A stretch of DNA of 64,000 bases, taken from NCBI RefSeq assembly GCF_028912405.1, contig NZ_JAKELO010000002.1, positions 248,001 to 312,000 of the forward strand. The letters are read 5' to 3'. The notes beneath the pieces were generated by a model, which was not told the origin of the DNA, did not search any database, and saw nothing but the letters and a program-made list of their open reading frames with translations. Of this stretch, positions 11,663 through 55,569 are shown one piece after another. The DNA comes from Methanogenium marinum (GTDB lineage Archaea > Halobacteriota > Methanomicrobia > Methanomicrobiales > Methanomicrobiaceae). A program made the translations under genes and the position numbers. The number at the start of each line of letters is the position of its first letter. Position 1 is the first letter of the stretch.

Positions 11663-12598
11663 TTAACAATATTTCTCCCCTATCACGTACTGTTGTCCAT
11701 AGGTTACTTCAACAAGAACTCTTCGTAAATATTCTCCGATAATACCAAGAGACAGTAATATCATCCCCGATAGAAATGCCAGAGCAACCATGAGAGAACT
11801 CCATCCCATAAGACCAAAGGATGGATCGATTATACTTCGTATGAATACATAAATTCCATAAAATATGCTGAGCATACTGGTACAAAATCCTAATGCACTA
11901 ATGAGTGTCAATGGAAGAACGGAGTGGTTAATGATGAGGTTTAATGAGAGTTTTAGATACCTTATAAATGAATAATTTGACTGTCCGTTTTTTCGGGGAT
12001 TATGCTGAACGTAAACGTCAGCAGCATTTTTCATCGATGTACTTTCACGTATCACTGCAGGCAAAAAGATAAATGAACCTTTAAAATAACAGGCATTTTT
12101 TATTACATCTTTTGAAAAAATGGCAAAACTTGACAGATACACTGAATCAGGGATATCTAAGAATGTATGCATTAATTTTTCAAATAGAGAACTGAAAAAA
12201 TTTTCCACCCTGCTGTGTTGTTTCAGAATATATTTTCCATAAACGACATCATATCCCTCTTTAATCTTATTAATCAATACGGGAATCTCTTCAGGAGGGT
12301 GCTGAAGATCATCATCCATGATGACGACATAATCTCCGGTAGCATAATGAAACCCACATAGTGTTGCATTATGTTGTCCAAAATTTCTCAGCAAATGAAT
12401 AATTCGTGTATTTTTATTTCCCTGATGTATTTTTTGCAACATCTGCCAGCTATTATCTGAACTGCAGTCGTCGACAAGAATGATTTCATAATCTATGGTT
12501 ATTTTTGAGAATACAGCAGAAAGTCTGTCAGTTAGTTCAGTCAACGTATTCTCACTGTTGTACACAGGAATAACAACTGAAATTTTTTGATTTTCCAT
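11663..12598 (-). CDS. ArnC/DPM1-type polyprenyl-phosphate glycosyltransferase (GT2)
   Basis: 311 residues. The GT-A domain begins ISVVIPVYNSENTL and holds VDDCSSDNSW and the metal motif MDDDLQHPPEE (about residues 93-103). It ends with two membrane helices near residues 225-290, as in ArnC, GtrB and DPM1. These enzymes load one sugar from a nucleotide donor onto dolichyl- or undecaprenyl-phosphate. The two small transporters directly downstream are suited to flip that product, and the DUF6044-like membrane protein could use it outside the cell. The start overlaps the preceding gene's stop. Confidence 0.9.
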   Translation of the reverse strand: MENQKISVVIPVYNSENTLTELTDRLSAVFSKITIDYEIILVDDCSSDNSWQMLQKIHQGNKNTRIIHLLRNFGQHNATLCGFHYATGDYVVIMDDDLQHPPEEIPVLINKIKEGYDVVYGKYILKQHSRVENFFSSLFEKLMHTFLDIPDSVYLSSFAIFSKDVIKNACYFKGSFIFLPAVIRESTSMKNAADVYVQHNPRKNGQSNYSFIRYLKLSLNLIINHSVLPLTLISALGFCTSMLSIFYGIYVFIRSIIDPSFGLMGWSSLMVALAFLSGMILLSLGIIGEYLRRVLVEVTYGQQYVIGEKYC

Positions 12599-12978: not shown

Positions 12979-13725
12979 TCATTCATACATTTTCCTCATA
13001 ACTATTTTTTCATCCGTTAAACGAAAACCCAAATGAATATAGATGTTAAATACATCCAGATTATGACTGGATATCGAAGTATAAGCTGTTTTCATTCCCT
13101 TTGAAAAAGCATAATTCAGATAATCATTTACCATACTAACCATGAATCCATATCCTTTGTATTCCTCTGAAACACCTCCTAACATCATATACGTATCATA
13201 AGATTCGTTTTTTATCATTGAAAATCCAATGATGTCCCCCTTTGTTTTCGAAATATAAACATATGTTTCATATTTTTCATCGTGAAACGAATTTAAGAAC
13301 CAATTCTTATAACGCAGCCCGGAATACTTTTTATCGAATTTTGGATCTAAGAAATAGCGGTCGGTATCAAATGTTGTGGTAATAATTTTTATTACTTCAT
13401 CCACTGCTTTTAGATCGGAATAATCCAGTTTCTGCAATACACAATGCCTGGAATAAAGAAGAACCGGAGATGTTTGAGTAAGTACTTTCTTTAATTCATA
13501 CTGAGATTCCATATAATTAAAGCCGCATTCTTCTAAGTAGTGGATTTTTTTAAAATCGTTGTTATTTAATTTGATAAAACTCATAAATGCATTATCAGTA
13601 TAACAGCTCTCATCTACCTCCTTTAATTCATTTTTATTGAAATAATCGGTGTTTTGAATCTCGAACACATTTTTACTAAATAATTTGGTATCCCATTCAA
13701 CCAGAATTTTTTGCATACGCATCAT
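12979..13725 (-). CDS. GNAT-family N-acetyltransferase, WecD/PseH-like
   Basis: 248 residues. The C-terminal half has GNAT features: GDIIGFSMIKN, the acetyl-CoA loop around GGVSEEYKGYGFMVSMVNDYL (about residues 190-210), then TSISSHNLDVFNIYIHLGF. The opening EWDTKLFSKNVFEI resembles dTDP-4-amino-4,6-dideoxygalactose acetyltransferases such as WecD. It likely acetylates an amino sugar nucleotide made with the WecE-like aminotransferase at 23995..25212, or the nonulosonate precursor. It is the first gene of the minus-strand operon ending at 10901. Confidence 0.75.
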   Translation of the reverse strand: MMRMQKILVEWDTKLFSKNVFEIQNTDYFNKNELKEVDESCYTDNAFMSFIKLNNNDFKKIHYLEECGFNYMESQYELKKVLTQTSPVLLYSRHCVLQKLDYSDLKAVDEVIKIITTTFDTDRYFLDPKFDKKYSGLRYKNWFLNSFHDEKYETYVYISKTKGDIIGFSMIKNESYDTYMMLGGVSEEYKGYGFMVSMVNDYLNYAFSKGMKTAYTSISSHNLDVFNIYIHLGFRLTDEKIVMRKMYE

Positions 13726-14194: not shown

Positions 14195-15274
14195 TTATGC
14201 CACAAATTCTGCCTCCACTATCTCATCCTCAGATATGGTTTTTTTTGCTCTTTTTCCTATAACCGTTTTTATTGAACGGGGACTGATACCCGTCCCGGGC
14301 CTTTTAAACGTGACCATCCCCTCTGTGATTATCGTTCCCTTCAAAATTTCTCTCTTCGCAACGATGCTCCGGCGTGCAAACATCCGTGCCGGCATCTCAC
14401 TTTCGAGAGGCCGTTTCTCAGAAATTCCTATAATATCCTGTACAAATGAAACCCGCTGAACAAACATTCTCAGATCATCAGGGTCCATTGCATGGTAGTG
14501 ATCATTTCCCGGAAGGGATTTATCGAGAGTGAAATGTTTTTCAATCACCATTGCCCCCAGAATGAAAGCCGTTGTAAGAACTGACATCGTAGAATCAGGA
14601 AGGGTATGGTCTGAATACCCGATGGGATAATCCGGGTATCTCTTCCTGAGATGGGAGAGCATCCCGAGATTCGCATCTCGATATGCTGTCGGATAATTCA
14701 GGATACAATGCATAAGAACAATCTCCTCATTTCCTTCCTCCCTGATTGCCTCCACAGCCTCGTCAATCTCATCAATGGTCGATGCACCGGTTGAGAGAAA
14801 GACCGGTTTCTTCTTTTGGGCAATATACCGGATGAACGGGATATTCGTGATATCAGAGGACGATATTTTAAAAACCGGCATGAGTTCGTCCAGCACATCC
14901 ACCGCCTCGAAATCGAATGGTGTCGATAAAAATACGATATTATTCTCTTGTGAGAAATGGGCCAGTTCCTGATAATCCTCCTTCTCAAAGGAATCAAATT
15001 TTTTGAACAATTCATATTGAGAGGAAGTGGGTTCCTGAGCAGTGTCCCAGTATGCAGGAGAATATTTTGATGCCAGTTTTTCCGCTTTATAGGTCTGAAA
15101 TTTTACTGCGTCAGCACCTGCCTGTGCTGCTGCAGTGATCATCTTCTTTGCTGCGTCTATCGGCTCAATCTGTTCTTTTCCTGCAATATCGTAGTAATTT
15201 ACTCCTATTTCGGCGATAACAAATGGTTTGGCATCTCTGCCGATGGCATACGTTTCAAATTCAACTGGCATCAT
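14195..15274 (-). CDS. neuB: N-acetylneuraminate/nonulosonate synthase with SAF domain
   Basis: The NeuB barrel begins after KPFVIAEIGVNYY, with AGADAVKFQTYKAEKLASKY, the FLSTPFDFEAVD segment, KISSSDITNIPFIRYIA, and GYSDHT with EKHFTLDKSLPGNDHYHAMDP. A C-terminal antifreeze-like SAF domain follows (RRSIVAKREILKGTIIT to the end). It condenses phosphoenolpyruvate with a hexosamine derivative to give a nine-carbon acid such as legionaminic or pseudaminic acid. The start at 15274 is preferred because GGAG precedes it by about 10 nt; the longer ORF begins at 15292. It overlaps the 3' end of the NeuA-PseG gene, so the pair is co-translated. Confidence 0.92.
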   Translation of the reverse strand: MMPVEFETYAIGRDAKPFVIAEIGVNYYDIAGKEQIEPIDAAKKMITAAAQAGADAVKFQTYKAEKLASKYSPAYWDTAQEPTSSQYELFKKFDSFEKEDYQELAHFSQENNIVFLSTPFDFEAVDVLDELMPVFKISSSDITNIPFIRYIAQKKKPVFLSTGASTIDEIDEAVEAIREEGNEEIVLMHCILNYPTAYRDANLGMLSHLRKRYPDYPIGYSDHTLPDSTMSVLTTAFILGAMVIEKHFTLDKSLPGNDHYHAMDPDDLRMFVQRVSFVQDIIGISEKRPLESEMPARMFARRSIVAKREILKGTIITEGMVTFKRPGTGISPRSIKTVIGKRAKKTISEDEIVEAEFVA

Positions 15275-16955
15275 GTCTTTTCCACTCCTCATGGCTATTC
15301 AGTATTAAACTGAGCACCCTTCCAAGATTCCCTTTTAAATCAAACTTTAACAGTTTTTTATTCATTTCCTGTCTCAACGGATAGTCATCAATTAATCTCT
15401 TTATCGCAGTTGCAATATCATCAACCGATACCGTATACGCAAGGCCCAGAGAGAGAGGCCCATGAGAGTTATGAACAAAGAGATGCCGAACTTCCCGCTC
15501 GTTCTGTGATATTGAGATACATGGTGTCCCAACACTCGCAACTTCATAAATAGTTCTGCCGTTGGAGGTGAGCACAATATCTGCTTCCCCCATCTCTTTT
15601 GCCATGAGACGAACGTTTTCCTTCACATCAACCCGGAATCCTTTCTTCCGGAGCTCTGACACATATGCATAGAGCTTCTCTTTGGGCTGATACCCTTTCC
15701 CAAGGATGACATTGATTGCAATCGCCGTTAAATCCAGATTTTCGAGGGCATGGAGTGTTCGTGACGTCAGATCATTGGGGTCGGTTCCCCCAAATGTTAT
15801 CAGGATGTTGTTTACGTCAGGAACAGGTTTTTTTGTGGGGAAAATATAGAATTCATCCCTCAGGCATTCATATTTGTAGCCATAATAATGATTATCCGGT
15901 GGATAACTATTCTCATAGAGAGCATTGATCACAATATTGGCGTATTCGGCCCCCTCTCCAAGATCTTCAAAATTCACCACAAAATACCCTTTGTTCCGGA
16001 GGTTCTGGATATACGCTGGCTCCGTGTCAAGGATATCATTAATGATGATATCCGGCTTTGTTTCATCCAGAATCGAGAACATCTCATCATCATCTGAATA
16101 TGTTTTGACAGGATACAAAAATTCATGAACTTTCTGTATCCCCAACTCCTTTGTCCGATTCATCAAAAATATGATATTATGGCGAAAAACAAGCCTGTTT
16201 GCCAGGGTAAGTGCCCGGTAAATATGGCCCAACCCAGTATCATAGTCACCATCAACGATGTACACAATATTTTTTCGGTGGAGTATATTTTCAGCCGATT
16301 CCCAGTCCTGATACGTATCGATATCAATTCCTTCATTCCGTGATACTTCAAATATGGTGAACGAACTGCCGATTCTGCTCTTTTCAGAAACAACACCCCT
16401 TCTGGAAATGACCACAGCACCGGTTTCCTGGTATATGGGATCAAGATATTGCCGGTTTTTTCGTTCTTTGTAGAGTGGTACAAACTGTTCTCCACTTTTT
16501 ATCCAAAACAGATGAGGTTCCGCTTTTACACTCAGTATGGTATCATACTGTTCACGATACATCAGATCAATCATTGTGTCAAGAGTTAACGTTGAGAGCA
16601 GAGGTGATGTTGGCTGAATCGTAGCAACGAATTCAAATTGCTGATTATTCTCATCTTCGATGGATGTCAGAGCATGATAAATAACAGGATCGAGAGGAAC
16701 CTCATCTTCAGCAAGTTCTTTTGGTCTTATAATTACCTGTGCACCAAAAAGGCGGGAAATTTCGGCGATTTCATCATCGTCTGTTGTTACAACAACATCA
16801 TCAATATATTTTGATCTCAGTGCTGTTTCTATAGCATAACCAATAAGAGGTTTATTCGCAAGCAACCGAATATTTTTTCTTGGAATCCCTTTACTACCGC
16901 CTCTCGCAGGGATAATGGCAACCATTTTTTTGTGCTTCTGTTTCATCTGACTCAC
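15261..16955 (-). CDS. fusion of CMP-nonulosonate cytidylyltransferase and PseG-like hydrolase
   Basis: 564 residues, two domains. Residues about 10-230 are a NeuA/PseF cytidylyltransferase: VAIIPARGGSKGIPRKNI, NKPLIGYAI, TTDDDEIAE, and QPTSPLL. Residues about 232-555 are a GT-B-like PseG/SpsG domain: VDGDYDTGLGHIYRALTLA, ITFGGTDPNDLT, and NGRTIYEVASVGTPCISISQNERE. PseG removes UDP from the 2,4-diacetamido sugar before condensation by NeuB, and the cytidylyltransferase activates the product. One polypeptide thus holds the step before and the step after the adjacent NeuB. The first residues (MSQMKQKHKKM) allow several starts. Confidence 0.9.
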   Translation of the reverse strand: MSQMKQKHKKMVAIIPARGGSKGIPRKNIRLLANKPLIGYAIETALRSKYIDDVVVTTDDDEIAEISRLFGAQVIIRPKELAEDEVPLDPVIYHALTSIEDENNQQFEFVATIQPTSPLLSTLTLDTMIDLMYREQYDTILSVKAEPHLFWIKSGEQFVPLYKERKNRQYLDPIYQETGAVVISRRGVVSEKSRIGSSFTIFEVSRNEGIDIDTYQDWESAENILHRKNIVYIVDGDYDTGLGHIYRALTLANRLVFRHNIIFLMNRTKELGIQKVHEFLYPVKTYSDDDEMFSILDETKPDIIINDILDTEPAYIQNLRNKGYFVVNFEDLGEGAEYANIVINALYENSYPPDNHYYGYKYECLRDEFYIFPTKKPVPDVNNILITFGGTDPNDLTSRTLHALENLDLTAIAINVILGKGYQPKEKLYAYVSELRKKGFRVDVKENVRLMAKEMGEADIVLTSNGRTIYEVASVGTPCISISQNEREVRHLFVHNSHGPLSLGLAYTVSVDDIATAIKRLIDDYPLRQEMNKKLLKFDLKGNLGRVLSLILNSHEEWKRHDAS

Positions 16956-17070: not shown

Positions 17071-18072
17071 TCAACGAATCATGTTCGGCTCGCTTTCCCC
17101 ATCATCCCCATATTCTTCATGAATCCGGTCCGCAATCTGAGGTCCTGTGAGATTGTTTTCCTTCAGAAGATACTGATAATCTCCAACGCGTTGAAAGGCA
17201 TCAGGAATGCCAATTTTCACCTGTCGGGGCCTATATGAAATTTCGCTCAGGTATTCTGCTACTGCGCCGCCAAGGCCACCAATCACCGAATGTTCTTCAA
17301 CAGTCACAACGAGATCTGTTTGACAACACACGTCTTTTATCATCGCAGTATCAAGCGGTTTTATCGTGTGCATGTCGATAACGGAGGCTGAGATCCCGTT
17401 ATCACTCAGTATTTCAGCAGCAACAAGAGATTCATGCACCATGGTGCCGGTTGCAATAATCGAAATATCGGTCCCTTTTCTGAGAAGAATTCCTTTCCCA
17501 AATTCAAATTCGTAATCTTCATCATAGACAATCGGATTTCTCAGTGCACCACTCAGACGAATATACATTGGCCCTTTGTGATGTGCTGCTTTTTTTATGG
17601 CCTTCACCGTCTCCAGTCCATCAGCAGGTGAAACGACCATCAGATTCGGGATGGCTCTCATGAGCGAAAGATCCTCCATACCATAATGAGTATTTCCGGA
17701 CATCCCCATGGCAAGGCCACTTCCTGTTCCGATAACCTTGACATTGGATTTCATATATCCAAGCTGGATGCGAATCTGTTCATAAGAACGCATGGCGAGG
17801 AAATTGGAATACGTTGTCACAAAGACATTCTTTCCTTCCTTTGCCATCCCTGCAGCAACACCCACCATATTCTGCTCTGCAATTCCGGCATTGATAAACT
17901 GATCGGGGAATTTTTCCCTGAATTGCGTAAGGCCGGTAAGCGTTGTTAAATCCGCAGTCATCACTACCAAATCATCATCCTGAGCAGCAATCTCTCCCAT
18001 AATCGCTGCAAACGACCCACGCTGGCCAAGTTTTGAATAGAAACGTACATTGAATGGATTAGGATTAACCAT
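17071..18072 (-). CDS. transketolase, C-terminal (pyrimidine-binding) subunit
   Basis: 333 residues of the split transketolase beta half. It has MTADLTTLTGLTQF, FINAGIAEQNMVGVAAGMA, GSGLAMGMSGNTHYGMEDLSLMR, PADGLETVKAI and TVEEHSVIGGLGGAVAEYL. It provides the glutamate-bearing pyrimidine-binding half of the thiamine-diphosphate site. The N-terminal subunit lies 2 bp upstream but carries a frameshift. The position inside a surface glycan/ACP gene cluster, not with central metabolism, suggests a dedicated two-carbon transfer in sugar or aldehyde synthesis (inference). Confidence 0.9.
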   Translation of the reverse strand: MVNPNPFNVRFYSKLGQRGSFAAIMGEIAAQDDDLVVMTADLTTLTGLTQFREKFPDQFINAGIAEQNMVGVAAGMAKEGKNVFVTTYSNFLAMRSYEQIRIQLGYMKSNVKVIGTGSGLAMGMSGNTHYGMEDLSLMRAIPNLMVVSPADGLETVKAIKKAAHHKGPMYIRLSGALRNPIVYDEDYEFEFGKGILLRKGTDISIIATGTMVHESLVAAEILSDNGISASVIDMHTIKPLDTAMIKDVCCQTDLVVTVEEHSVIGGLGGAVAEYLSEISYRPRQVKIGIPDAFQRVGDYQYLLKENNLTGPQIADRIHEEYGDDGESEPNMIR

Positions 18073-18074
18073 GG

Positions 18075-18934
18075 TTATTCCCCACTCCGTATCTCCTGCA
18101 TGGCCAGATCATACTGTTTCTGAGACAGAGTGGAATGGTGCCACTCCTTGTTGTTCTCCATGAATGAGACCCCCTTCCCTTTTACCGTATCAGCAATGAT
18201 AACCTGTGGTTTTCCGTTTGACGAATGGCTACATACAGAAAAAGCATCATACAATTCCTTTACATTATGCCCATCAACCTCGGTTACGTCCCAACCAAAA
18301 CTTTCCCATTTGGCTTTAAAATTATCCAGATTCATAATTTCACAGCACGGGCCATCGTACTGCAATTTGTTACTATCAACTATTGCAATCAGATTGGACA
18401 GATGGTAATGTGATGCAAACATAGCACATTCCCATATCGAACCTTCATCACATTCTCCGTCTCCAACAAGAACATATGTACGATAGGACTTTTTCTGCAT
18501 TTTTCCTGCAAGAGCCAGTCCGGCTCCAAACGGCAACCCCATCCCAAGGCTGCCGGTTGAACATTCAATACCTTTCTCCATATTGAGTATCGGATGACCG
18601 GGCAAACATTCCCCATTGACTTCAAATTTCAGCAGTTCATCTTTCGGGAAAAAACCTGCTTCCGCAAGGGCAGTATAATAGGCAAGAACCCCATGTCCTT
18701 TACTCAGAATGAAACGGTCCCGCCCATCCCATTCAGGATTCTTTGGATCAAAACGCAGTATACCCCCATACAGGGTTGCCATAATCTCAATCATAGACAG
18801 CCCCCGCCTAAGTGTGATCCATTTGTTCCGGCGGAATGAGCCATTTTTATCGCTTGCTCTCGCATCCGTCCAGCCATTTTTTCAATAGAACAAATGGAAT
18901 TATCGAGTTTATCACTTTCAACAGTATTCTCCAT
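18075..18934 (-). pseudogene. transketolase, N-terminal (diphosphate-binding) subunit, one-base frameshift
   Basis: The ORF track shows only 18075..18794, beginning MIEIMATLYGGIL and holding the thiamine-diphosphate motif GDGECDEGSIWE...IVDSNKLQYDG. The conserved start lies upstream in another frame: MENTVESDKLDNSICSIEKMAGRMREQ then AHSAGTNGSHLGGG, which should run into LSMIEIMA. The frames meet at a five-base C run (18801..18805; G run in the coding strand); a sixth base would restore a 287-codon gene. Either a true loss-of-function or phase-variable tract, or a homopolymer error. A translational restart at the internal ATG would lack the N-terminal helix and conserved HLGGG, so it is unlikely to be active. 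Confidence 0.85.
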
Positions 18935-19404
18935 GTACGTGTACCCCCACCGACCCGGATTACCTGACTCAGAACATATGACAAATAATAAAATCGGATG
19001 TCAAAAACGAATGCAACACAAGGTATCCCGTTTGGATATTCTGCCTTTTCGGTCACACACATCGTCAAATAATCATTTTTGACGTCTCCCCCATGTTTTA
19101 TCATGCCAGTTTCGGTCATACCCGGCGCTATTGCATTACCCCGTGATAGATGTTGATGGAATAGTTTTCCCGTGATTGTTTTTTGTAGCCCCACAAGGAC
19201 CGCCTGACAAGAGATATATGCTGGTTGTCCGGGTTCACCATCAATACCTGCTATAGGCGACAGATATATAATACTATCGACAAACCGACTGTCCTGTGGC
19301 CTGAATAAAGAAAATAAAATTCCGTGAATTGGAAAATTCAGGCATTCCCCTAAACCCATTAAATCATGAATATTTGGTTTAATGACGATTAAAAGACAAA
19401 TCAA
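18918..19404 (-). pseudogene. FabG-like short-chain dehydrogenase, decayed
   Basis: The 185-codon ORF looks anonymous, but its middle is an SDR C-terminal half: IIYLSPIAGIDGEPGQPAYI, RGNAIAPGMTETGMIKH and YVLSQVIRVGGG. The catalytic YxxxK reads YISCQ, with lysine replaced by glutamine, and the N-terminal Rossmann motif (TGxxxGIG) is missing. One frame over, the end would read GVHVHGEYC-stop, overlapping the transketolase start. The break is again at a C5 run (about 18942). It sits between luxC and the transketolase genes, so it was probably the oxidoreductase of that pathway. Confidence 0.7.
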
Positions 19405-19486
19405 GAATTTTTAGCCATTATCCACCGGAATAACGATTCATTTGAGCAAAGATATCATTAAATATTCAATCGCACTACCAATATAA

Positions 19487-20785
19487 TCACTGATATTTAA
19501 GTATCACCCAACGCACCAATCTGGACAACGGCAGAATTCCATCCCAGGGGAGATCATAATCATGAATTGTTCCGGGAATGACAATCCTGTCCACACCCAG
19601 ATATGTCGCTTCACGTGCAAAACTCTCTCTTTTTTGTGGATTGAATATGGAAACAGACAACGCCTGAATTTTTCGGGTAATCAATTCGGGAACAGTATCC
19701 AGCGACTCAACTTCTTTAAGGAAAATACATTTCCCATGAACAGGATCTTCTAACCGGAAATCGTTATCAATTAAAATTGTCCAGCTTAAATCATCAGAAG
19801 CAATGACTGATTTATCATCGGACAGCAAATATTTTGCACGAATGTTTATGATATTCGCAAGTATTCCTGCATCCGTGGGCTGTATCCTCAAATCTCCCGG
19901 AAGATTCTCAAAACACCTGGCCAGCTGTTCCCCAATTGTTTGCAGCTGAAATGAACTTTTTTCAAAGAATAACACCTGAGGCGAAGAACAGGCCATCTGA
20001 TTGAAATATGCAATATCTTTTGCCATTTTATCTAACGATTTTTCAAACAGGTCACTCTCAATAAATTCCCTGTCAAACACACCGAACGAATATTTTGGGC
20101 CATAAACAATTGTTTCACAGTGGTCTTTTTGCGGCAATGCCAATATTGACTGTATCGCTTTTGAACCGCCGTACACCAGTCTGCAATCAGCGTTGAGAGA
20201 GAAATCACTACTTATTGTATGATTCCTTCCTTCAAAAGAGACGACAGAGATTGCTTTTACGATATCAAGCCCGGAATAATGAGAATTATCATAGGTAACT
20301 TCAACGCTTGCAAGTTCCTGTAAAAACTGCAGAAGAATGTCTTTATTCTCTTCGGGAACTTTAACAATACTCCCGTTCTTTGAAAGAATTGTCTGAACAA
20401 TGGAAATAATTGCCAAAGTAGGAATATTCGCTGCAACCCATAGGGCGACAACTCCCCTTGGCTGGGCAGTCATTTTAAACCGATTTTCCACGTCAACAAA
20501 AGAATCAGGATAGGAGAGATTTCCATAATTTATCCGGCAGATTTGTTCGAGATTTCTCTTTCTCAGCCACAAAGACAGGTAGGTTATGCCCTGAATTTTG
20601 GTAAGGTGTGGATTTTGTATGATCTTCTTTCCCAGTGCTGATAATATCTCAATTATTACCGGCAATGGCAATGCATGAAGGGCCCGGCGATTGGTGTTGA
20701 CAACCTGCGATATATCTGCGAAATTATCCTGATTCTGCTCAGAAAACTCCCCATCAAGTAAATAGCATTTTACCACTGAATTCAC
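19487..20785 (-). CDS. luxC: LuxC-like acyl-CoA/acyl-protein reductase
   Basis: 432 residues of the LuxC/aldehyde dehydrogenase-like family. The N-terminal region is followed by QPRGVVALWVAANIPTLAII (nucleotide-binding region), GGSKAIQSIL, and the nucleophile segment FNQMACSSPQVLFF (about residue 260), whose cysteine carries the acyl group. The C-terminus keeps GVDRIVIPG. The enzyme reduces an activated acyl group to an aldehyde with NADPH. Its start overlaps the end of luxE by 4 nt, as in other LuxE-LuxC pairs. In this cluster the acyl group probably comes from the ACP and ligase two and three genes upstream. The true substrate is unknown; nothing here suggests bioluminescence. Confidence 0.88.
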   Translation of the reverse strand: MNSVVKCYLLDGEFSEQNQDNFADISQVVNTNRRALHALPLPVIIEILSALGKKIIQNPHLTKIQGITYLSLWLRKRNLEQICRINYGNLSYPDSFVDVENRFKMTAQPRGVVALWVAANIPTLAIISIVQTILSKNGSIVKVPEENKDILLQFLQELASVEVTYDNSHYSGLDIVKAISVVSFEGRNHTISSDFSLNADCRLVYGGSKAIQSILALPQKDHCETIVYGPKYSFGVFDREFIESDLFEKSLDKMAKDIAYFNQMACSSPQVLFFEKSSFQLQTIGEQLARCFENLPGDLRIQPTDAGILANIINIRAKYLLSDDKSVIASDDLSWTILIDNDFRLEDPVHGKCIFLKEVESLDTVPELITRKIQALSVSIFNPQKRESFAREATYLGVDRIVIPGTIHDYDLPWDGILPLSRLVRWVILKYQ

Positions 20786-21897
20786 TCCTTAAACGTATCT
20801 CCGCACCCACGGATCTCTGCTTTTTCGATGCGTGATGCAAATCTGAAATAGGTGCCTTTCCGCCCGCAGGGGCAGTCATCAATACCAACCACATACCCCA
20901 GATCTTCCGTCAGGACTGCCTGAGAATAATAGCTGTCTGATAATACACTCAGAATTTCAATCATTCCGGTTTCACCAACAGAGCATGGCTGAAGGGTATA
21001 CGGGTTCCTGATTATTACCTGAGAAATATTCGGCACATGTTTATTTCCGCATTCACAGTCTACGAAAATAATGCCCGTCTGTTCTGCCATACCATAAAAA
21101 TCCAGGATATTACGTTTATCGGTATTAAATACGGAAGACATGGATTCAGAAAAGTATTCTTTTGAAACCTGTTCATCTTTCAGCTTTTTCCAGCCCCCGC
21201 TATGGAACAGCGTAATGTCACTGAAATTGAAATGAATGTCTTTCTCAATTATCTGTTGGTAAAAGACAGACCAGATGATATAGGTAAAACCAAATGCGTA
21301 CACATCTTTCCCGGAATATCTTTCAATAACGTCCTGTATCACCGGTTCATTTAATACCAGTTTGCCGTTCTCTTCTTTAAGAAGATAATACGTCTTTTTT
21401 GCATAGATGCTAAGCCCCCTCACACCCGCAGTCCGTGCGGTAAATTCAGAAACAGAACTATTGACACCTTCATGATCGATAACCAGGAATACTTTCCGTT
21501 TATTTCCAAGATAATCCGACAGAATCTGTTTTAATGATTTCATCTGGTTTAAAACAGTTTTTTTATTTAATGGAACTCTGCTTGCAGTATCACTTGTCGT
21601 GCCACTGGAACGCAGCATTTTCACAATCGCTTCCTTTTCACACGTTGATAGATCAAAATATTTGAACATCTGAACAGGAATGAATGGGATTTCCTCAATT
21701 TTTGTAATTGCGTCAATGTCAGTGCCCTGTTTTGAAACCAGATTTTTGATGTGAGTATTGTTTTGAACAGCATTTTTCAGCTGAATTTTGAGTATATCGG
21801 TTAAAGTCTGATTTTTTGTTTGATCTTCCAATAGATATGGTGGTTGAATCAATAACTCATTAATATCTGAATCCAGTATTTTCTCAGAATCAGTCAT
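20782..21897 (-). CDS. luxE: LuxE-like acyl-protein synthetase
   Basis: 371 residues. Adenylate-forming fold with the phosphate-binding motif LRSSGTTSDTASRVPL (about residues 93-108), FGFTYIIWSVFY, YGMAEQTGIIFVDCECGN, and the late DLGYVVGIDDCPCGRKGTYF. The C-terminal small domain of full acyl-CoA ligases is missing, as expected for LuxE. LuxE activates an acid or accepts an acyl group and hands it to the LuxC cysteine. Several cysteine pairs (CECGN, CPCGRKG) may bind zinc. Overlaps both flanking genes by 4-8 nt, so it is a core part of a tightly packed operon. Confidence 0.88.
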   Translation of the reverse strand: MTDSEKILDSDINELLIQPPYLLEDQTKNQTLTDILKIQLKNAVQNNTHIKNLVSKQGTDIDAITKIEEIPFIPVQMFKYFDLSTCEKEAIVKMLRSSGTTSDTASRVPLNKKTVLNQMKSLKQILSDYLGNKRKVFLVIDHEGVNSSVSEFTARTAGVRGLSIYAKKTYYLLKEENGKLVLNEPVIQDVIERYSGKDVYAFGFTYIIWSVFYQQIIEKDIHFNFSDITLFHSGGWKKLKDEQVSKEYFSESMSSVFNTDKRNILDFYGMAEQTGIIFVDCECGNKHVPNISQVIIRNPYTLQPCSVGETGMIEILSVLSDSYYSQAVLTEDLGYVVGIDDCPCGRKGTYFRFASRIEKAEIRGCGDTFKE

Positions 21898-23359
21898 GTA
21901 AAATCATCTCCTTTATCTTATTCCGATCTACTTTCCCTGACGAATTCAACGGAAATTCTTTGAAAACAAATACGTTCTTTGGAACTTTATACGAAGGCAG
22001 TTTTTTGTTGCACAAAGAAAAAATGCTGTCATCAATCAATTTTTTGTCATCACTATCAGTCTGAACCACGGCAACAACGCCCTCGCCCATTATCTCATCC
22101 GGCATCCCGACTACCACACATTCCAGTATGCTATTGAGACTGAGGATGACATCCTCAATTTCATACGGGGATATTCTGTATCCCCCGGATTTCAGGATGT
22201 TTTTTGAACGGCCAACGATGAATATATACCCATCAGAATCTACTGTTGCAAGATCTCCGGTGTATAATCTCCCGTTCTTTAAAACATTGGATGTTTCAAC
22301 AGAGTCTCCATAATATCCCTTCATGATATTATTGCCCCATGCCGTGATCTCTCCAATATCACCCGGCTGGACCCTATTTCCATCTGTATCAAGAACTTCA
22401 AGTGTTACTCCGGGAATCCCTTTGCCAATCGACCCCATTTTTTCTTTAATCAAATGAGGAGGCAGATAGGAGAGACGTGAAGTTCCCTCGGTAGCTCCGT
22501 ACATTAAAAAAAAATCCTTGTCAGGGAACGAGTCTACCATTTTCGTGATATATTTATTCGGGAGTTGCCCTCCGGACTGTGCAAAATAGCGTAAAGACGG
22601 ATACTCTCTTTCCAGCAATGGTGATTTATTGATCAAAATCTGATACGTGCTGGGAACGCCGGCAAATCCTGTACACTTGTGCGTATTTATATCCTTAATA
22701 ACAGAACCCAGAAATGGCTTATTATGCAGGTAAATACTGCCGCCAGCCCGGATATGGGTATGGAGTAATGAAGCACCAAAACAGTAAAAAAATGGCAGAA
22801 CAACATAAATCCGATCATCTTCTGTTAACCGCAGATATTCAATTATTGAATGGGTATTCTCACAGAGATTATTATGGGTCAGCATCACTCCTTTTTTGGT
22901 CCCTGTGCTTCCGGACGTGTAGATTATTACCGCTACTTCATCGCCGGACTGTTCCGGATACAATTCAGTTTCAGTCTGATTCTGCAGTTCCTTTTCTAAA
23001 GATTCTGAGTATATGTCATCACAAATCCATGGAAATTTACTGCGGTATTTTTCCTGAATGAAATAGGCATCTAACGAAGATTTTGTGATAACATCCTCAA
23101 AATCTTTGTCTCCAATCTGGGTTTCAATAAGAACAGCAGTATTCCCACTTTTGATTATAGCGAGATAGCAGATGATAAAAAAATCATTATTTTCAGAAAG
23201 AAGGAGCATATTTTTCCCATGGGAGTATTTCTGCTGAATGAAATGTGCCAGATTATTTATTTTATCATACATTTCATGATAACAAATCTCTGTGTCACCG
23301 ACGAGGAACGGACTGGATGAACATTTTTTGCCTTCAAATAAATAATCTGCAAAATTCAT
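21890..23359 (-). CDS. AMP-dependent acyl-CoA/acyl-ACP ligase
   Basis: 489 residues with the full adenylating signature set: IIYTSGSTGTKKGVMLTHNN (about residues 146-165), MYGATEGTSRL, LYTGDLATVDSDGYIFIVGR, and the A10 lysine segment NSSGKVDRNKI near the end. It activates a carboxylic acid as an acyl-adenylate and transfers it to a thiol. The ACP encoded 1 bp upstream is the likely acceptor, so it may act like the adenylation enzyme of a stand-alone carrier-protein system. Substrate cannot be told from sequence. Confidence 0.9.
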   Translation of the reverse strand: MNFADYLFEGKKCSSSPFLVGDTEICYHEMYDKINNLAHFIQQKYSHGKNMLLLSENNDFFIICYLAIIKSGNTAVLIETQIGDKDFEDVITKSSLDAYFIQEKYRSKFPWICDDIYSESLEKELQNQTETELYPEQSGDEVAVIIYTSGSTGTKKGVMLTHNNLCENTHSIIEYLRLTEDDRIYVVLPFFYCFGASLLHTHIRAGGSIYLHNKPFLGSVIKDINTHKCTGFAGVPSTYQILINKSPLLEREYPSLRYFAQSGGQLPNKYITKMVDSFPDKDFFLMYGATEGTSRLSYLPPHLIKEKMGSIGKGIPGVTLEVLDTDGNRVQPGDIGEITAWGNNIMKGYYGDSVETSNVLKNGRLYTGDLATVDSDGYIFIVGRSKNILKSGGYRISPYEIEDVILSLNSILECVVVGMPDEIMGEGVVAVVQTDSDDKKLIDDSIFSLCNKKLPSYKVPKNVFVFKEFPLNSSGKVDRNKIKEMILHD

Positions 23360-23360
23360 G

Positions 23361-23618
23361 TTATTCTGCCATGTATTTATGAATAATCTCTTTAATTAAT
23401 CCGAAATTTTCCATCGCAATGATGTCGTCCATCTGAAATTCCAGATCAAAATGATCTTCATATTCAGAGACTAACTGAAGGTGTTTTAAGGAATCCCATT
23501 TATCAAAGGAATTATATGCAGTCTCATCATTCACTTCAAATTCTTCAGCACCCATTACTGTACAGAATATTTCTTTAATCGTTCTTTCTGATTCATTCGT
23601 CATTTTCATAATCCCCAT
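23361..23618 (-). CDS. acyl carrier protein
   Basis: 85 residues, acidic, four-helix ACP fold. The phosphopantetheine site is WDSLKHLQLVSEYEDHF, serine in DSL (about residue 43). Carrier proteins are normally absent from archaea, which do not make fatty acids by the bacterial route, so this is a notable acquired gene. It lies between the holo-ACP synthase, which overlaps it by 26 nt with the longest start, and the acyl ligase. A start at the second or third methionine (MKMTNESE or MTNESE) would reduce the overlap. Confidence 0.9.
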   Translation of the reverse strand: MGIMKMTNESERTIKEIFCTVMGAEEFEVNDETAYNSFDKWDSLKHLQLVSEYEDHFDLEFQMDDIIAMENFGLIKEIIHKYMAE

Positions 23619-23970
23619 ACATTATTGCAAATGCGATTGCTTTGTCTTCACAATGTGAAAGACTGATTTCCGTCTTTAGCTTTTCATATCCTTTAACCTT
23701 TATCCATATGTGAGGAACGCCATTTCTGTCATTCAGAATTTCAATTTTTTTGTATGGCACCGGCTTTAATCCATATGCATAAAGGGCTTTCATTACCGCT
23801 TCTTTCCCCGCAAATCTCCCTGCTAAATGAGAGGACGCATCTTCCTTTGAAAAGCAGTAATCGAGTTCATCGCCGGAATAATTCTTTTGTAAGAATGAAT
23901 ATTCCTCATTCTTTACAATAGTAGTAAAGCGATGAATGTTCACAATATCTGTTCCAACAGAGATCTGCAT
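23593..23970 (-). CDS. acpS: holo-ACP synthase, AcpS type
   Basis: 125 residues with the AcpS signatures: GTDIVNIHRF at the N-terminus, the Mg/CoA-binding LAGRFAGKEAVMKAL (about residues 48-62) and SLSHCEDKAIAFAI near the C-terminus. It transfers 4'-phosphopantetheine from CoA to the ACP serine. Being the first gene of the ACP operon and overlapping the ACP gene, it appears dedicated to that carrier. Its presence argues that the carrier is really used, since an archaeal host would not supply this enzyme. Confidence 0.93.
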   Translation of the reverse strand: MQISVGTDIVNIHRFTTIVKNEEYSFLQKNYSGDELDYCFSKEDASSHLAGRFAGKEAVMKALYAYGLKPVPYKKIEILNDRNGVPHIWIKVKGYEKLKTEISLSHCEDKAIAFAIMYGDYENDE

Positions 23971-23994: not shown

Positions 23995-25212
23995 TCAAAC
24001 GACAATACAGGGTTTCATAAAATGTAATAATTTTTCATTAATGTAATCTTCTTCTTTTAATCCAATTCCTGCAAAAACGGGCAATCTCAGTAACCGTCCG
24101 CTTACATCTTCGGTAATGGGGAGATCACCTTTCACACACCCATACTGCCGCCCCATCGGAGAAGAATGCAGTGGGATATAATGAAAAACAGCATGAATGC
24201 CCTGGTTTTTAAGTTTCGCCATCATTTCGTTGCGAACCGTTTCGGTTTCAAAAAGCACATAGAATAAATGGGCATTGTGTTCAGCATATTCAGGTACAAC
24301 AGGAAGTCGAATACGTCCTTCCTCTTCAAGGGGTTTTAACGCATCATAGTAGGCATGCCAGACCGCGAGTCGCTTTTCCTGGATCTCATCAAGGTGTTCA
24401 AGCTGTGAATATAATAAGGCTGCCAGAATATCACTTGGCAGATAACTTGAACCAATATCCACCCAGGTATATTTGTCCACTTCTCCACGGTAAAACTGAC
24501 TGCGATTCGTACCCTTCTCTCTTAAAATCTCTGCACGTTCATTGATTTTGGGGTCGTCTGTATTTATTAAAAGAGCACCCCCTTCTCCACAGACATAATT
24601 CTTTGTCTCATGGAAACTGTAACAACCAAAATCACCAATTGTCCCAAGATATTTTCGTTTATACCGGGCATTCACTCCCTGTGCAGCATCCTCAACCACT
24701 GACAGATTATGGGCGTCTGCTATATCCATAATTTCATCCATGTCACATGAAACTCCGCCATAATGAACCGGACATATTGCACGGGTCTTTTTCGTGATCT
24801 TACGTCTGATCTCCCCGGGGTCAATATTCATGGTATCAGGGGAAATATCTGCAAAAACAGGTGTTCCACCAGCCAGGATAATAGCATTCGCAGTCGACGG
24901 GAATGTATATGATGGAAGTATTACTTCATCCCCGGATTTGAGATTAAGTAAATAGAACGCAAGCTCAAGGGCACTCGTACCTGAAGTTGTTAAAAGAGCC
25001 ATTCGTGCACCAAAGCATCTTTCAAAAAATTGCTGCACAAGCTTTGTATATTTGCCATCACCGCTTATATGACCACCCGACTGAGACAACCAAATAGCAT
25101 CTTCAATATAGGAAAGCTCATTCCCTGTCAGATAGGGGCGGTTAAATGGAATTTCCATTTTTCCCACGGATTTCATTTTATATGGCGATATGCCCTTGAT
25201 TACAGACTTCAT
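23995..25212 (-). CDS. DegT-family sugar aminotransferase, WecE/RffA-like
   Basis: The catalytic core begins MEIPFNRPYLTGNELSYI, as in dTDP-4-amino-4,6-dideoxygalactose transaminase. It has TTSGTSALELA, DEVILPSYTFPSTANAI, VVEDAAQGVNA, the PLP lysine in CYSFHETKNYVCGEGG and GTNRSQFYRGEVDKYTWVD. The likely start is the ATG at 25158; the longer frame adds 18 residues and overlaps the isomerase stop by 4 nt. It would aminate a nucleotide 4-keto-6-deoxyhexose with glutamate. The GNAT at 12979 is a candidate for the next acetylation. RmlA/RmlB at 53.6-55.6 kb could provide the dTDP-keto sugar. Confidence 0.88.
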   Translation of the reverse strand: MKSVIKGISPYKMKSVGKMEIPFNRPYLTGNELSYIEDAIWLSQSGGHISGDGKYTKLVQQFFERCFGARMALLTTSGTSALELAFYLLNLKSGDEVILPSYTFPSTANAIILAGGTPVFADISPDTMNIDPGEIRRKITKKTRAICPVHYGGVSCDMDEIMDIADAHNLSVVEDAAQGVNARYKRKYLGTIGDFGCYSFHETKNYVCGEGGALLINTDDPKINERAEILREKGTNRSQFYRGEVDKYTWVDIGSSYLPSDILAALLYSQLEHLDEIQEKRLAVWHAYYDALKPLEEEGRIRLPVVPEYAEHNAHLFYVLFETETVRNEMMAKLKNQGIHAVFHYIPLHSSPMGRQYGCVKGDLPITEDVSGRLLRLPVFAGIGLKEEDYINEKLLHFMKPCIVV

Positions 25213-37999: not shown

Positions 38000-39054
38000 G
38001 AGAGGATTACAATTTTCCAATTTTTTGAAGACCAAAAATATGGATACAAATTCTAACTTTGCCTAATCACTCATTTCAGACAATATTTCACTATTTTTCA
38101 TATAGCTATCGCTCTAAGCTCCCTGTTTTTGAATCGTCATCATCTGATACAGATTATAAAAATGCAGAGAATGTATTCTTCACTCTTGCTCTGCCAAGTT
38201 CAGTCACTTTCATCGTTCCTGACTTAAATACCGTTTTTAGAACAACAAATGGTCTTTCTCCTTTGGACCTCTTCCGGGTGATTCTTTCATTACTGAGTTT
38301 ATCCCGGATTCCAATTGGATGGTTTCTTGCTCCTCTTTTCATAGTGGCATTGTACCCTTTGCATTTCGCTCCCTGGTATCCTCTGTCACGATAAACAACC
38401 TCTCCCATTTCGGAGAGATCTACCTGGCTGTCATGAACAGATGCAGTTGTTGTAGAAATTCTTCGTATCAGATCATAGTCCTGATCCATAATTGCATGGA
38501 GTTTGTATCCAAAATGGGATTTTCCACCTTTCTTTGTCCATGTGCCATCTTTGCTTCTTCTTGTCTTTGCCTCACCTCCCTGAGGGGTATCAGAAGAGGC
38601 ATGACCCGAATCGGAATGGATGAATGTTGCATCCTGGATCATGCCTTTCTTGATCGTAAGGCCTTTTGTATCCAACTGGCACTGTAGTTCATCCCAAATC
38701 GCACTATCTTTTCCGGATTTAGATATCCTTTCACTAAAAGAGCCAGATCGTGGATCGGTCGGGTATTTTATCGGGTAATCCAAGAAACTGCCTGAATGAA
38801 ATCCAGTTATTTGCCTGTCTTTCAAGTTCAGGATCAGAGAGGCCATGCCATTGCTGCAGAATAAGCATCTTGATCATAAGGATTTCATCCAGATTCGGAC
38901 GGCCACCTTTGTCAGTTTTATTTGAATACAGGTCTCCGAGAATTGGGCGAAATTGTTCCCAGTCTATCAGTTTCTCAACTTCACCTAATTTATCGCCCAA
39001 CTCAGCAATACGTCCGTATTCAGACTTAATTGCAAAATTAATGAAAGTGCTCAT
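38000..39054 (-). mobile_element. IS5-type insertion sequence, transposase frame-disrupted
   Basis: Transposase pieces: 38734..39054 (MSTFINFAIKSEYGRIAELG, RPNLDEILMIKMLILQQWHGL) and 38154..38846 (FGYKLHAIMDQDYDLI, VHDSQ, VVYRDRGYQGAKCKGYNATM, GARNHPIGIRDKLSNERITRKRSKGERPF). These are the N-terminal domain and the DDE catalytic core of IS5-group transposases. Frames change near 38740-38750 and again at the end (SAFL-stop versus SAFCYNLYQM in the other copy). The 3' end matches 47102..47450 in the opposite orientation through about 38000, which defines the element's conserved end. Probably not autonomous. Confidence 0.8.
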
Positions 39055-52452: not shown

Positions 52453-53619
52453 TCATGTAAATAAAGATCGTCTCACAAAGGTCCTTTCAGAACTCTCATC
52501 AGCCTGAAGTTCACCCTCAAATTGATATTCAGCCAGTATAGTATTACAAATCATTTCTATATCATTTGGATTCAACCATGCATCTATTGGTAAACACAAT
52601 ATTCTGCTTGCAATATCTCTGGAAATCACCTGAGCATTTTGTGGCTGAAGGTAATCAAGAGTATCAAGGGATGGATAGAAATACCGTCTTGGGAAGACAT
52701 TATTGTTGTTTAATTCTTCTTTGATTTGTAACAGTTCATCTTCTGTTTTGAAGAGAACAGGGTAATAAATATAATTGTTATTGATATGTGGATTACGCTC
52801 CTGCATTTCTACAACGTCTTTCAGAAGGCTCGCATAATGATACCAGACTTCAGCACGATGGTTAATAATTGCACCAATTTCATCCAAAACACACAGACCC
52901 ATTGCCGCCTGGAATTCATTCATTTTGGCATTGATACCTTCGCATACAATTGAATCAGGACCGTTTATACCAAAATTGATAAGCAATTTTGCTTTTTCAA
53001 GATCTTCTTTTCTCTTAAAAACAATTGCCCCACCTTCAATGGTATGGAAAAGTTTCGTTGCATGAAAACTCATAATTGTTGCGTCCCCGTGTTTTAACAG
53101 ACTTTCCCCTTTGTATTTCACTCCAAAGGCATGTGCGCCGTCATATACTGTTTTCAGCCCATATTTTTTTGCAATGGCATCAATAGCTTCAACTTCACAT
53201 GCGTTGCCAAACACATGAACCGGAACAATTGCGGTCGTTTCCGGAGTGATTGCCTTCTCAATATTTACCGGATCTATGCAGAACGTTTTTGGATTAATAT
53301 CAGCAAAAACAGGTTCAATACCACCCCATACCAGTGAACTTGTCGTTGCTACAAAACTAAATGGTGTAGTAATTGCCTGACCGGTAATACCAAGTGTTTT
53401 GTATGCAATCTGCAACGCCATAGTACCATTTGATACCAAAAGAAGGTTTTCAACGCCCAGGTACTCTTCAAGCCGTGCAGTTAACTCCCTTACAAATTCT
53501 CCATTATTCGTAACCCAGGCAGTTTCGTACAATCGGTCAATATATGCATCAAACTTCTCCCGATCAGGCAAATGCGTCTTTGTGACATTGATATTTTTAG
53601 AATTCATGTTATCGTTCAC
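52453..53619 (-). CDS. DegT-family nucleotide-sugar aminotransferase (VioA-like), copy 2
   Basis: 388 residues with the same motif set as its neighbour (NGTMALQIAYKTLGI, SFHATKLFHTIEGGAIVF). Overall very similar along the first 340 residues; it carries an extra 20-residue tail (FEGELQADESSERTFVRRSL). It overlaps the start-proximal gene rmlB by 11 nt. The close tandem copies probably arose by recent duplication. Whether they use different keto-sugars cannot be told from sequence. Confidence 0.87.
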   Translation of the reverse strand: MNDNMNSKNINVTKTHLPDREKFDAYIDRLYETAWVTNNGEFVRELTARLEEYLGVENLLLVSNGTMALQIAYKTLGITGQAITTPFSFVATTSSLVWGGIEPVFADINPKTFCIDPVNIEKAITPETTAIVPVHVFGNACEVEAIDAIAKKYGLKTVYDGAHAFGVKYKGESLLKHGDATIMSFHATKLFHTIEGGAIVFKRKEDLEKAKLLINFGINGPDSIVCEGINAKMNEFQAAMGLCVLDEIGAIINHRAEVWYHYASLLKDVVEMQERNPHINNNYIYYPVLFKTEDELLQIKEELNNNNVFPRRYFYPSLDTLDYLQPQNAQVISRDIASRILCLPIDAWLNPNDIEMICNTILAEYQFEGELQADESSERTFVRRSLFT

Positions 53620-54688
53620 TATAATTTTTATCGATCCAATCCCGGTATTCTCCAGTCCGAATGCGATTGATCCATTCCATATTATTCAGATACCAGGAAA
53701 CCGTTTCCCGAAGCCCCAGTTCAAAAGAAACTGAATGGCTCCATCCAAGTTCTTCCTGTATTTTCGTGCTGTCGATAGCATATCGCCGATCATGGCCAGG
53801 CCGGTCTTTCACATAGGTGATTAAGGAAAGAACATCACTCTCTTCTTTCCCTGTGATCTCGGCGTATACCTTACACAACGTCTGAACCACGTCAATATTG
53901 GTCTGTTCATTGCCACCACCAATATTATAGGTACTTCCAGCCAGACCGGATGTGATAATTTTCCAAACACCTTCATTATGGTCCCGCACATGAACCCAGT
54001 CACGCACATTCTGGCCGTCACCATACACGGGTAAAGAATTCCCCTCACTCATATTTAGAATCATCAATGGAAGCAGTTTTTCCGGAAACTGAAATGGTCC
54101 ATAATTGTTGGAACAGTTGGAAATCGTAACTGGTATTCCATATGTGTGAAAATATGCTGAAACCAAATGATCACTCCCTGCTTTACTGGCACTGTACGGA
54201 CTTCTTGGATCGTAGGGGGAATCTTCAGAAAACAGTCCAGTTTCTCCCAGGGAACCGTAGACCTCATCTGTTGATACATGATGAAACAACACATCCTTCC
54301 GATTTTTCCAGTATGCACGGACTGCCTCAAGAAGAGTGAATGTTCCCAGAATATTTGTTTTGATAAACTCTGCAGGACCTTCTATCGAACGGTCCACATG
54401 ACTCTCTGCTGCAAGATGAATGACCGTATCAATATCATATTCATTCAGAGTCACTGCTAACAGTTCAGAATCATTGATATCACCATGCACAAACGTATAT
54501 CGATCGTTGCCATATTTTTCTTCAATATCAAGAAGACTTTCCTGGTTTCCTGCATACGTCAGTGCATCCAGATTGACAATTGTTCCCGTGAAATTATTCT
54601 TAGAAAAAAAGGAACGGATCAGGTTGGAGCCAATGAACCCACATCCACCCGTCACCAGAATCGACTGAAGTTTTCTCGGTGAATTCAT
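53609..54688 (-). CDS. rmlB: dTDP-glucose 4,6-dehydratase
   Basis: 359 residues: [73 protein letters not shown] (YxxxK), [19 protein letters not shown] and [18 protein letters not shown]. All hallmark RmlB motifs. It makes dTDP-4-keto-6-deoxyglucose for the aminotransferases next door. No RmlC or classical RmlD accompanies it, so the product is likely an amino sugar rather than rhamnose. Overlaps rmlA by 4 nt. Confidence 0.95.
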
Positions 54689-55569
54689 TTACACGTCCTT
54701 TTATAATCATCAACAATCTCAAGAAGATACTCACCATATGAAGACTTTCTCTGCTGCTCCCCTAATGTACGGAATGCATCAAAATTGATGTAACCCATTC
54801 TGAAGGCAATCTCTTCGATTGAACTGATCATTAACCCCTGTCGTTCCTGAATGGTCTTTACAAACATGCCTGCTTCAAGCATACTTTCTGGCGTTCCGGT
54901 ATCAAGCCAGGCAAATCCTCGTCCCATCATTTTTACGGAAAGTTCGCCCCGTTCTAGATATATCCTGTTGATATCGGTTATTTCAATCTCACCTCTTGCA
55001 GAAGGTTTGAGATTGGCAGCGATATCCACTACCTGATTATCATAAAAATATAGTCCTACTACTGCACAATTAGATTTGGGATGTTCAGGTTTCTCTTCAA
55101 TTGAGATCGCATTCATATTCTCATCGAACTCAACAACACCAAATCGATGCGGGTCATGTACCGGATATCCAAACACAATCGCACCACTTTCCATTTGTGC
55201 TGCCTTCTGAAGCATTGGTCTGAGCCCGGCACCATAAAACACATTATCCCCGAGAATAAGACAGACTGAATCATCTCCTATAAACTCACGCCCAAGGATA
55301 AACGCATCCGCAAGACCCCGTGGCGCTTCCTGCACAGCATAGGTAATATTCAGTCCAATAAAAGACCCATCACCCAGCAGTTTCTCCATATTCGGCGTAT
55401 CTTCAGGTGTTGAAATAATTAAAATGTCACGAATTCCTGCCAGCATCAGTGAGGAAAGAGGATAGTACAGCATTGGTTTGTCAAACAGTGGCAGAAGATG
55501 TTTTGATACAACACGTGTTGTAGGGTTCAGTCTTGAACCACTACCTCCTGCGAGAATTATTCCTTTCAT
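54685..55569 (-). CDS. rmlA: glucose-1-phosphate thymidylyltransferase
   Basis: 294 residues: [99 protein letters not shown] and [16 protein letters not shown]. Canonical RmlA. It starts the dTDP-sugar branch from glucose-1-phosphate and dTTP. First gene of the rmlA-rmlB-vioA-vioA-acyltransferase operon. Confidence 0.95.

Follow-up and report, generated by a model that had tools for sequence, protein, structure and literature searches.

The 64,000-nucleotide stretch of Methanogenium marinum DNA analysed here (contig NZ_JAKELO010000002.1, positions 248,001 to 312,000; the window, below) carries in a glycan island a minus-strand gene run that encodes, from upstream to downstream, a WecE-type aminotransferase, the holo-acyl carrier protein synthase AcpS, an acyl carrier protein (ACP), an AMP-forming acid ligase (AMP ligase), LuxE, LuxC, the relic of a FabG-like short-chain dehydrogenase/reductase (SDR), and the N- and C-terminal halves (TKN and TKC) of a split transketolase (TK). 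The order of this gene set is conserved, its distal module is exchanged at the end of luxC, its genes are under purifying selection (the SDR excepted), and its enzymes retain their catalytic residues; the substrate pocket of the TK is altered. We consider it probable (roughly 0.6) that the set constitutes a dedicated pathway, in which an acyl side chain would be built on a private ACP and attached to a dTDP-4-amino-4,6-dideoxy sugar of a surface glycan.

Pfam and NCBIfam profiles, from which the gene names are taken, recover every member of the run from AcpS to the TK halves, apart from the SDR relic recognised by blastx, that a first-pass annotation had read from the letters of positions 18075-23970, although TKC (17071-18072) lies just outside that interval. 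The annotation knew of no earlier account of such a pathway in archaea. The loading and reduction cassette is already on record from flagellin glycosylation islands of bacteria (PMC7874193, PMC4875605); a search of open-licence papers turned up neither an archaeal account of it nor a cassette with a transketolase. New are its presence in archaea together with a dedicated AcpS, the exchange of FabG and TK, and a TK clade with a rebuilt pocket.

The cassette and its two endings

AcpS retains its GTDIV and FAGKEA motifs in alignment and scores above the TIGR00516 cut-off. It is the sole PF01648 match in the M. marinum genome and likewise in G409, a 99% complete sister species of the same genus that has the same operon at 78-85% protein identity. 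Its cognate ACP is also the sole match in the M. marinum genome, and the WDS motif with the phosphopantetheine serine is invariant across 19 aligned rows. ACP is missing from most archaea, and the few exceptions are regarded as imports (PMC3533463). No second AcpS, ACP or TK was found in this genome, and a role of the ACP in general fatty-acid synthesis is therefore unlikely. The AMP ligase is presumed to load ACP. Motif alignment finds it without the aspartate that we take to be the amino acid-binding residue of nonribosomal peptide synthetase adenylation domains, and its substrate is for that reason probably not an amino acid. LuxE and LuxC score above the cut-offs of PF04443 and PF05893, respectively, and align with LuxE and LuxC of Protein Data Bank (PDB) entry 7xc6. 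Both keep the acyl-accepting cysteine: C-terminal Cys365 of LuxE (RGC) is invariant in the alignment and the LuxC residue (NQMACSSP) is invariant in 20 aligned rows.

The LuxE cassette occurs in 14 of 232 genomes of the same order, at 15 loci, and the context of each was read. A further copy, in Methanohalophilus profundi, is the sole outcome of a single contig scan with LuxC alone. The order AcpS-ACP-ligase-LuxE-LuxC holds at 15 of the 15 archaeal loci that are fully covered by their contig (the G534 locus is cut by a contig end); thirteen other genomes of the order share it with M. marinum, and most of their copies are intact. In a fifteenth genome of the order, G198, a remote LuxE-LuxC pair stands without ACP. 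The LuxE/LuxC pairs that other archaea have at L039-L041 are 24-30% identical; they have neither ACP nor ligase nearby and were set aside as a different system. Bacteria were sampled through plasmids, and plasmid copies in Ponticoccus, Deinococcus and Nonomuraea are ordered ACP-SDR-ligase-LuxE-LuxC; AcpS was not seen in the bacterial plasmid copies, whose hosts have their own. Conservation of gene order in unrelated genomes, named beforehand as what would argue for a pathway, is found, and comparable sets of genes are present on bacterial plasmids.

Downstream of LuxC, the operon ends in one of two ways. A FabG-like SDR follows at eight loci and in M. profundi; at seven loci one or two SDRs (reduced to a relic in M. 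marinum and G409) are followed by TKN and TKC. The Lux-type TK is present in seven genomes, all seven of them among the 14 of 232 that have the cassette (hypergeometric 5e-10, relatedness ignored). On the LuxC tree, five switches of the TK/FabG label are required, even when only well-supported (starred) branches are considered, whereas the archaeal and rhizobial Lux-linked TKs fall together in one group (support 93/97). It thus seems that one and the same TK lineage joined LuxC cassettes on repeated occasions. The place of exchange is sharply defined. Between G164 (TK ending) and G411 (FabG ending), DNA identity of 93.6% breaks off 4 bases short of the luxC end; between G534 and G466, identity of 81% breaks off 13 bases short of it. 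Exchange of the two endings at the same place points to a branch compound, probably the aldehyde made by LuxC.

The transketolase pocket

The TKC of the window has the changes H461G, D469S, R520G and S385L (E. coli numbering), with catalytic E411 and H473 retained; the catalytic and cofactor positions H66, H261, D155 and N185 of the TK are retained as well, and catalytic residues are likewise conserved in the other Lux-linked TKs compared. H461, D469 and R520, the residues of a canonical sugar-phosphate TK, are lost in 8 of the 8 Lux-linked TKs compared (replaced by G or T, by S, F or L, and by G, respectively), and retained in 5 of 8 other archaeal split TKs, in the two-chain Carboxydothermus enzyme (PDB 6yaj) and in TktA. 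The three residues serve recognition of the substrate, whose phosphate and hydroxyl groups they bind. Non-phosphorylated aldehydes, both aliphatic and aromatic, are substrates of the laboratory-evolved S385Y/D469T/R520Q variant of the E. coli enzyme, in which R520Q makes the active-site funnel wider (PMC5073344). The pocket of the Lux-linked TKs is altered as might be expected for a non-phosphorylated aldehyde, and the best lead on mechanism is that a natural TK altered at these sites is encoded beside a LuxC that putatively makes an aldehyde. The course of reactions suggested at first pass, from acid through ACP and aldehyde to two-carbon extension, gains specific support from the swaps at the end of luxC, the altered TK pocket and the retained catalytic residues, with each reaction still putative.

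Other TKs of the survey show a variety of contexts. The split TKs of other bacterial plasmids lie beside sugar kinases and ABC (ATP-binding cassette) transporters, form a separate clade and probably serve sugar catabolism. G311 (L066:7247-12397) has two split-TK pairs close together, one canonical and the other without H461, D469, R520 and H26; there is no LuxC near the latter. In two other archaea, full-length unrelated TKs stand directly beside PseF-like genes with NeuB nearby (L073:8734-10671 and L074:8285-10219), constituting a second association of TK with nonulosonate genes.

The proposed pathway and its alternatives

In the pathway that we infer (its reactions and their order, its substrate and its acceptor), AcpS would arm ACP, the AMP ligase would activate an acid and load it on ACP, LuxE would activate a carboxyl group and hand it via its own Cys to LuxC, and LuxC would reduce the acyl group to an aldehyde. 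In operons with the FabG ending, the SDR would then reduce the product; in those with the TK ending, as in the window, the split TK would add a two-carbon ketol unit to the non-phosphorylated aldehyde. SDR reduction would originally have followed, a step presumably lost or replaced in this genus. The amino sugar would come from WecE, and the completed acyl group would be passed onto it by the WecD-like acyltransferase. That there are two separate enzymes for acid activation suggests a starting acid of the dicarboxylic kind, which would be held on ACP by one end while the other is reduced. A more specific version, which can be offered only tentatively, is that the ACP-tethered acid is reduced at its free end by LuxE and LuxC and extended by a TK evolved for non-phosphorylated, ACP-bound aldehydes, so as to give polyhydroxyacyl groups for amino sugars in archaea and bacteria alike. 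If so, the role of LuxC and LuxE in flagellin glycan islands would be explained, possibly including a 102-Da moiety of Aeromonas flagellin, and this would be, to our knowledge, the first natural TK dedicated to carrier-bound aldehydes.

The acceptor is suggested by genes that flank the cassette. The DegT protein had been proposed to aminate the aldehyde. It scores instead above the equivalog cut-off of WecE, the dTDP-4-amino-4,6-dideoxyhexose transaminase, and so more likely makes the acceptor sugar; WecE orthologues lie directly upstream of AcpS in G409 (85%), G414 (68%) and G466 (65%). The RmlB-like and RmlA-like proteins of the window could supply the dTDP-sugar for WecE; G414, G466 and G238 carry RmlA/RmlB homologues upstream of their aminotransferase and cassette. 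The WecD-like acyltransferase also belongs to the set, and had been overlooked in the first-pass annotation. It matches the gene directly after TKC in G409 (75%) and the gene directly after FabG in G414 (60%), and the GT2 glycosyltransferase matches genes in the corresponding place (82% in G409, 62% in G414); the pair directly follows TKC in the former and stands close behind FabG in the latter. The G409 operon thus reads WecE-AcpS-ACP-ligase-LuxE-LuxC-(relic)-TKN-TKC-WecD-like-GT2. Hexapeptide sugar acyltransferases are found close to other cassette copies. Together, WecE and the WecD-like protein point to acylation of a dTDP-4-amino-sugar.

In the window, unlike G409, a PseF-PseG fusion (PseFG) and NeuB intervene between TKC and the WecD-like acyltransferase. 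This arrangement, and the occurrence of other, unrelated TKs near NeuB or PseF (L067, L068, L073, L074), would fit a different outcome, in which aldehyde and ketol unit become the backbone of a higher-carbon or branched sugar, for example one feeding NeuB and PseFG, and not an acyl group. However, NeuB and PseFG are absent from the 20-kb stretch of G409, whose operon is the most similar and in which the acyltransferase gene comes straight after TKC, and the WecE and WecD-like pair is common to FabG- and TK-type operons; a sugar-backbone product is accordingly judged unlikely. The other alternative of some weight is that ordinary fatty acids are the substrate of the cassette, which would turn them into fatty aldehydes or alcohols for placement on the glycan. 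The family names LuxC, LuxE, FabG and ACP favor such a liposugar, and the authors of the Aeromonas and enterobacterial studies suggested it (PMC7874193, PMC4875605). Yet no condensing enzyme was seen in the cassette, and LuxC and LuxE score far below the NCBIfam equivalogs of the long-chain fatty acid reductase of bioluminescence (80 versus 750 and 83.5 versus 550 bits, respectively). Moreover, a fatty chain would hardly call for extension by a two-carbon ketol unit, and the closest mass data, the 102 Da moiety of A. piscicola, fit a small residue. A fatty product is therefore improbable. That the TK is a housekeeping pentose-phosphate enzyme, placed beside the cassette by chance, is rejected as very improbable: it is the only TK found in the genome, and archaeal TKs are often split, but most relatives have no such TK (any TK at E <= 1e-60 is found in 14 of 232 genomes of the order), the type is confined to cassette genomes and has lost H461, D469 and R520, and swaps with FabG at the end of luxC have recurred.

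The tested genes of the set are under purifying selection, apart from the SDR. Between M. marinum and G409, the ratio of nonsynonymous to synonymous substitution rates (dN/dS) is 0.10-0.18, at dS of 0.5-0.9, for AcpS, ACP, ligase, LuxE, LuxC, TKN, TKC and WecE; it is 0.20 for the WecD-like acyltransferase and 0.17 for GT2. SDR and TKN had both been described as damaged, with the suggestion that the loading and reduction half might persist alone. The SDR is indeed a true pseudogene, in which only the C-terminal half is recognisable (blastx, 42% to SDR1 of G471, frames broken), and there is no recognisable SDR in the matching 0.5-kb gap of G409. TKN, on the other hand, is no wreck. Its coding sequence starts at an ATG (18934) and has a single frameshift, within a run of five Gs (18801-18805), and the gene is intact in G409 (~84% identity). 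The frameshift may be a recent mutation, a reversible slip, or a single sequencing error in the G run. A frameshift-rich assembly (81% completeness) was considered as a general cause and rejected, open reading frame coverage and lengths resembling those of G409; no clear split genes were found among 21 homologues. The SDR is dead in both species and yet TKN and TKC are strongly purified (dN/dS 0.10 and 0.16), and the TK is therefore kept by selection without this SDR; persistence of the loading and reduction half alone is not borne out. Nor is the locus at all likely to be the debris of a decaying bacterial import without present function: the SDR is dead in two species, TKN is frameshifted here and transposases occur elsewhere in the window, but the low dN/dS of seven cassette and TK genes and of WecE, and the mostly intact copies in 13 other genomes of the order, disfavor it.

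Several points weigh against the proposed acylation pathway. The WecD-like acyltransferase, although full length, scores 38 bits versus the WecD equivalog cut-off of 219, making it a relative and not a member, and WecD itself uses acetyl-CoA. LuxC and LuxE are remote relatives of the bioluminescence enzymes, the support of the Lux-linked TK clade falls just short of what is starred, and the bacterial branches of the LuxC tree are long. Four TKs that are not linked to Lux genes (L066b, L069, L072 and L080) also lack H461 and D469; because TKs of other loci share part of the pocket loss, it is support for, and not proof of, use of the LuxC aldehyde. In this strain the TK branch may be off, since the SDR is dead and TKN is frameshifted.

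The island and related systems

The features of the locus and its surroundings are listed below.

Table 1. Cassette, transketolase and associated glycan genes of the window
Feature	Position	Strand	Profile or search result
WecE-type aminotransferase	23995..25212	-	NF008687 562.7 bits vs cut-off 375
AcpS, holo-ACP synthase	23593..23970	-	TIGR00516 65.2 bits vs cut-off 59.8
ACP, WDSL phosphopantetheine Ser	23361..23618	-	PF00550 22.3 bits vs cut-off 20.8
AMP-forming acid ligase	21890..23359	-	PF00501 5e-62
LuxE-family acyl-protein synthetase	20782..21897	-	PF04443 182.5 bits vs 24.9, 1.6e-53
LuxC-family acyl-thioester reductase	19487..20785	-	PF05893 205.1 bits vs 21, 2e-60
FabG-like SDR pseudogene, TK-linked type	~18940..19480 (approximate limits)	-	blastx
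TK N-half (TKN), thiamine diphosphate (ThDP)/Mg domain	18075..18934	-	PF00456 7e-43; NF004559 269 bits
TK C-half (TKC)	17071..18072	-	PF02779/PF02780
PseF-PseG fusion, pseudaminic-type sugar	15261..16955	-	TIGR03584 and TIGR03590, both below cut-off
NeuB-family nonulosonate synthase	14195..15292	-	PF03102 2e-81; 70% to G414
WecD-like GNAT acyltransferase	12979..13725	-	NF008212 1.4e-9, full length, below cut-off
GT2 glycosyltransferase, travels with WecD-like acyltransferase	11663..12598	-	PF00535
RmlB-like dehydratase and RmlA-like nucleotidyltransferase	53609..55569	-	PF16363, PF00483

PseF and PseG are fused into one protein of 564 amino acids, and the same fusion (562 amino acids, 68%) is found in G414 (L100:15519-17207). 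A DUF6044 protein (E 1e-201) is encoded within the island at 8956-10773; its homologues lie near the cassette in G414 (L100, 65%) and G466 (L103, 49%), and it may for this reason be part of the same glycan machinery. The window also has two genes for cupin-type glucose-6-phosphate isomerase (PF06560; 5245-6015 and 25209-26138) and, in the glycan island, two DDE transposase genes (38154-38846 and 45820-46974).

Many surface-glycan islands of bacteria contain genes named luxC and luxE, and a decoration pathway of the kind proposed becomes testable. The archaeal copies may lend themselves to cleaner study: a second ACP was not found in the host, AcpS comes with the operon, and FabG and TK are exchanged. 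An ACP-SDR-ligase-LuxE-LuxC cassette has been described in the group II flagellin islands of Aeromonas (PMC7874193). The flagellin of A. piscicola AH-3 carries a 102-Da moiety. Compared by description and not by sequence, the Aeromonas islands have the same five protein types beside pseudaminic-acid genes, with a glycosyltransferase after LuxC; they differ in that no AcpS or TK is listed and in that the target is bacterial flagellin. The five gene types in a glycan locus are intact in the FabG-type relatives of M. marinum, with the SDR a relic in the window. Flagellin islands of Enterobacteriaceae likewise have Acp, CaiC, FabG, LuxE and LuxC, the same protein types with a function that has been guessed; these islands are bacterial and TK is not mentioned (PMC4875605).

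Two Rhizobium plasmids (NZ_CP098804 and NZ_CP090094; L046 and L082) combine TKN-TKC and a NeuD/VioB-type acyltransferase with ACP, ligase, LuxE, LuxC and SDR. Their TK is of the same clade as the archaeal Lux-linked TKs and has the same pocket losses, whereas the gene order is different, AcpS was not seen, and a GMC oxidoreductase, FabZ and a methyltransferase are additional. We know of no study of these clusters.

Vibrio cholerae O1 N-acylates perosamine, a 4-amino sugar, with 3-deoxy-tetronate, in whose synthesis WbeL (wbeL, wbe/rfb region) takes part (PMC3441752). The computed mass of a tetronyl residue is 102.03, and the 102-Da moiety of Aeromonas might, on nominal mass only, be related to it. 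The tetronate pathway presumably employs ACP, a ligase and LuxC/LuxE-like genes, with an alcohol dehydrogenase in place of SDR or TK. The LuxC-LuxE fatty acid reductase of luminous bacteria (7xc6) is homologous, and both of its acyl-carrying cysteines are retained here; the relationship is remote, far below the equivalog cut-offs, the partners in the window are ACP and ligase, and no luciferase genes are found among the annotated genes of the window.

The split TK of Carboxydothermus (6yaj/6yak) is a two-chain enzyme and the best PDB match for both halves in the window; unlike the Lux-linked TKs, 6yaj retains H461, D469 and R520. The E. coli S385Y/D469T/R520Q enzyme is changed at the same pocket positions and is active on non-phosphorylated aldehydes (PMC5073344). 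That variant is laboratory-made; the Lux-linked TKs are natural, have other replacing residues and have lost H461 as well. Their family looks like the natural counterpart of a long-running engineering goal, ketol transfer to non-phosphorylated aldehydes.

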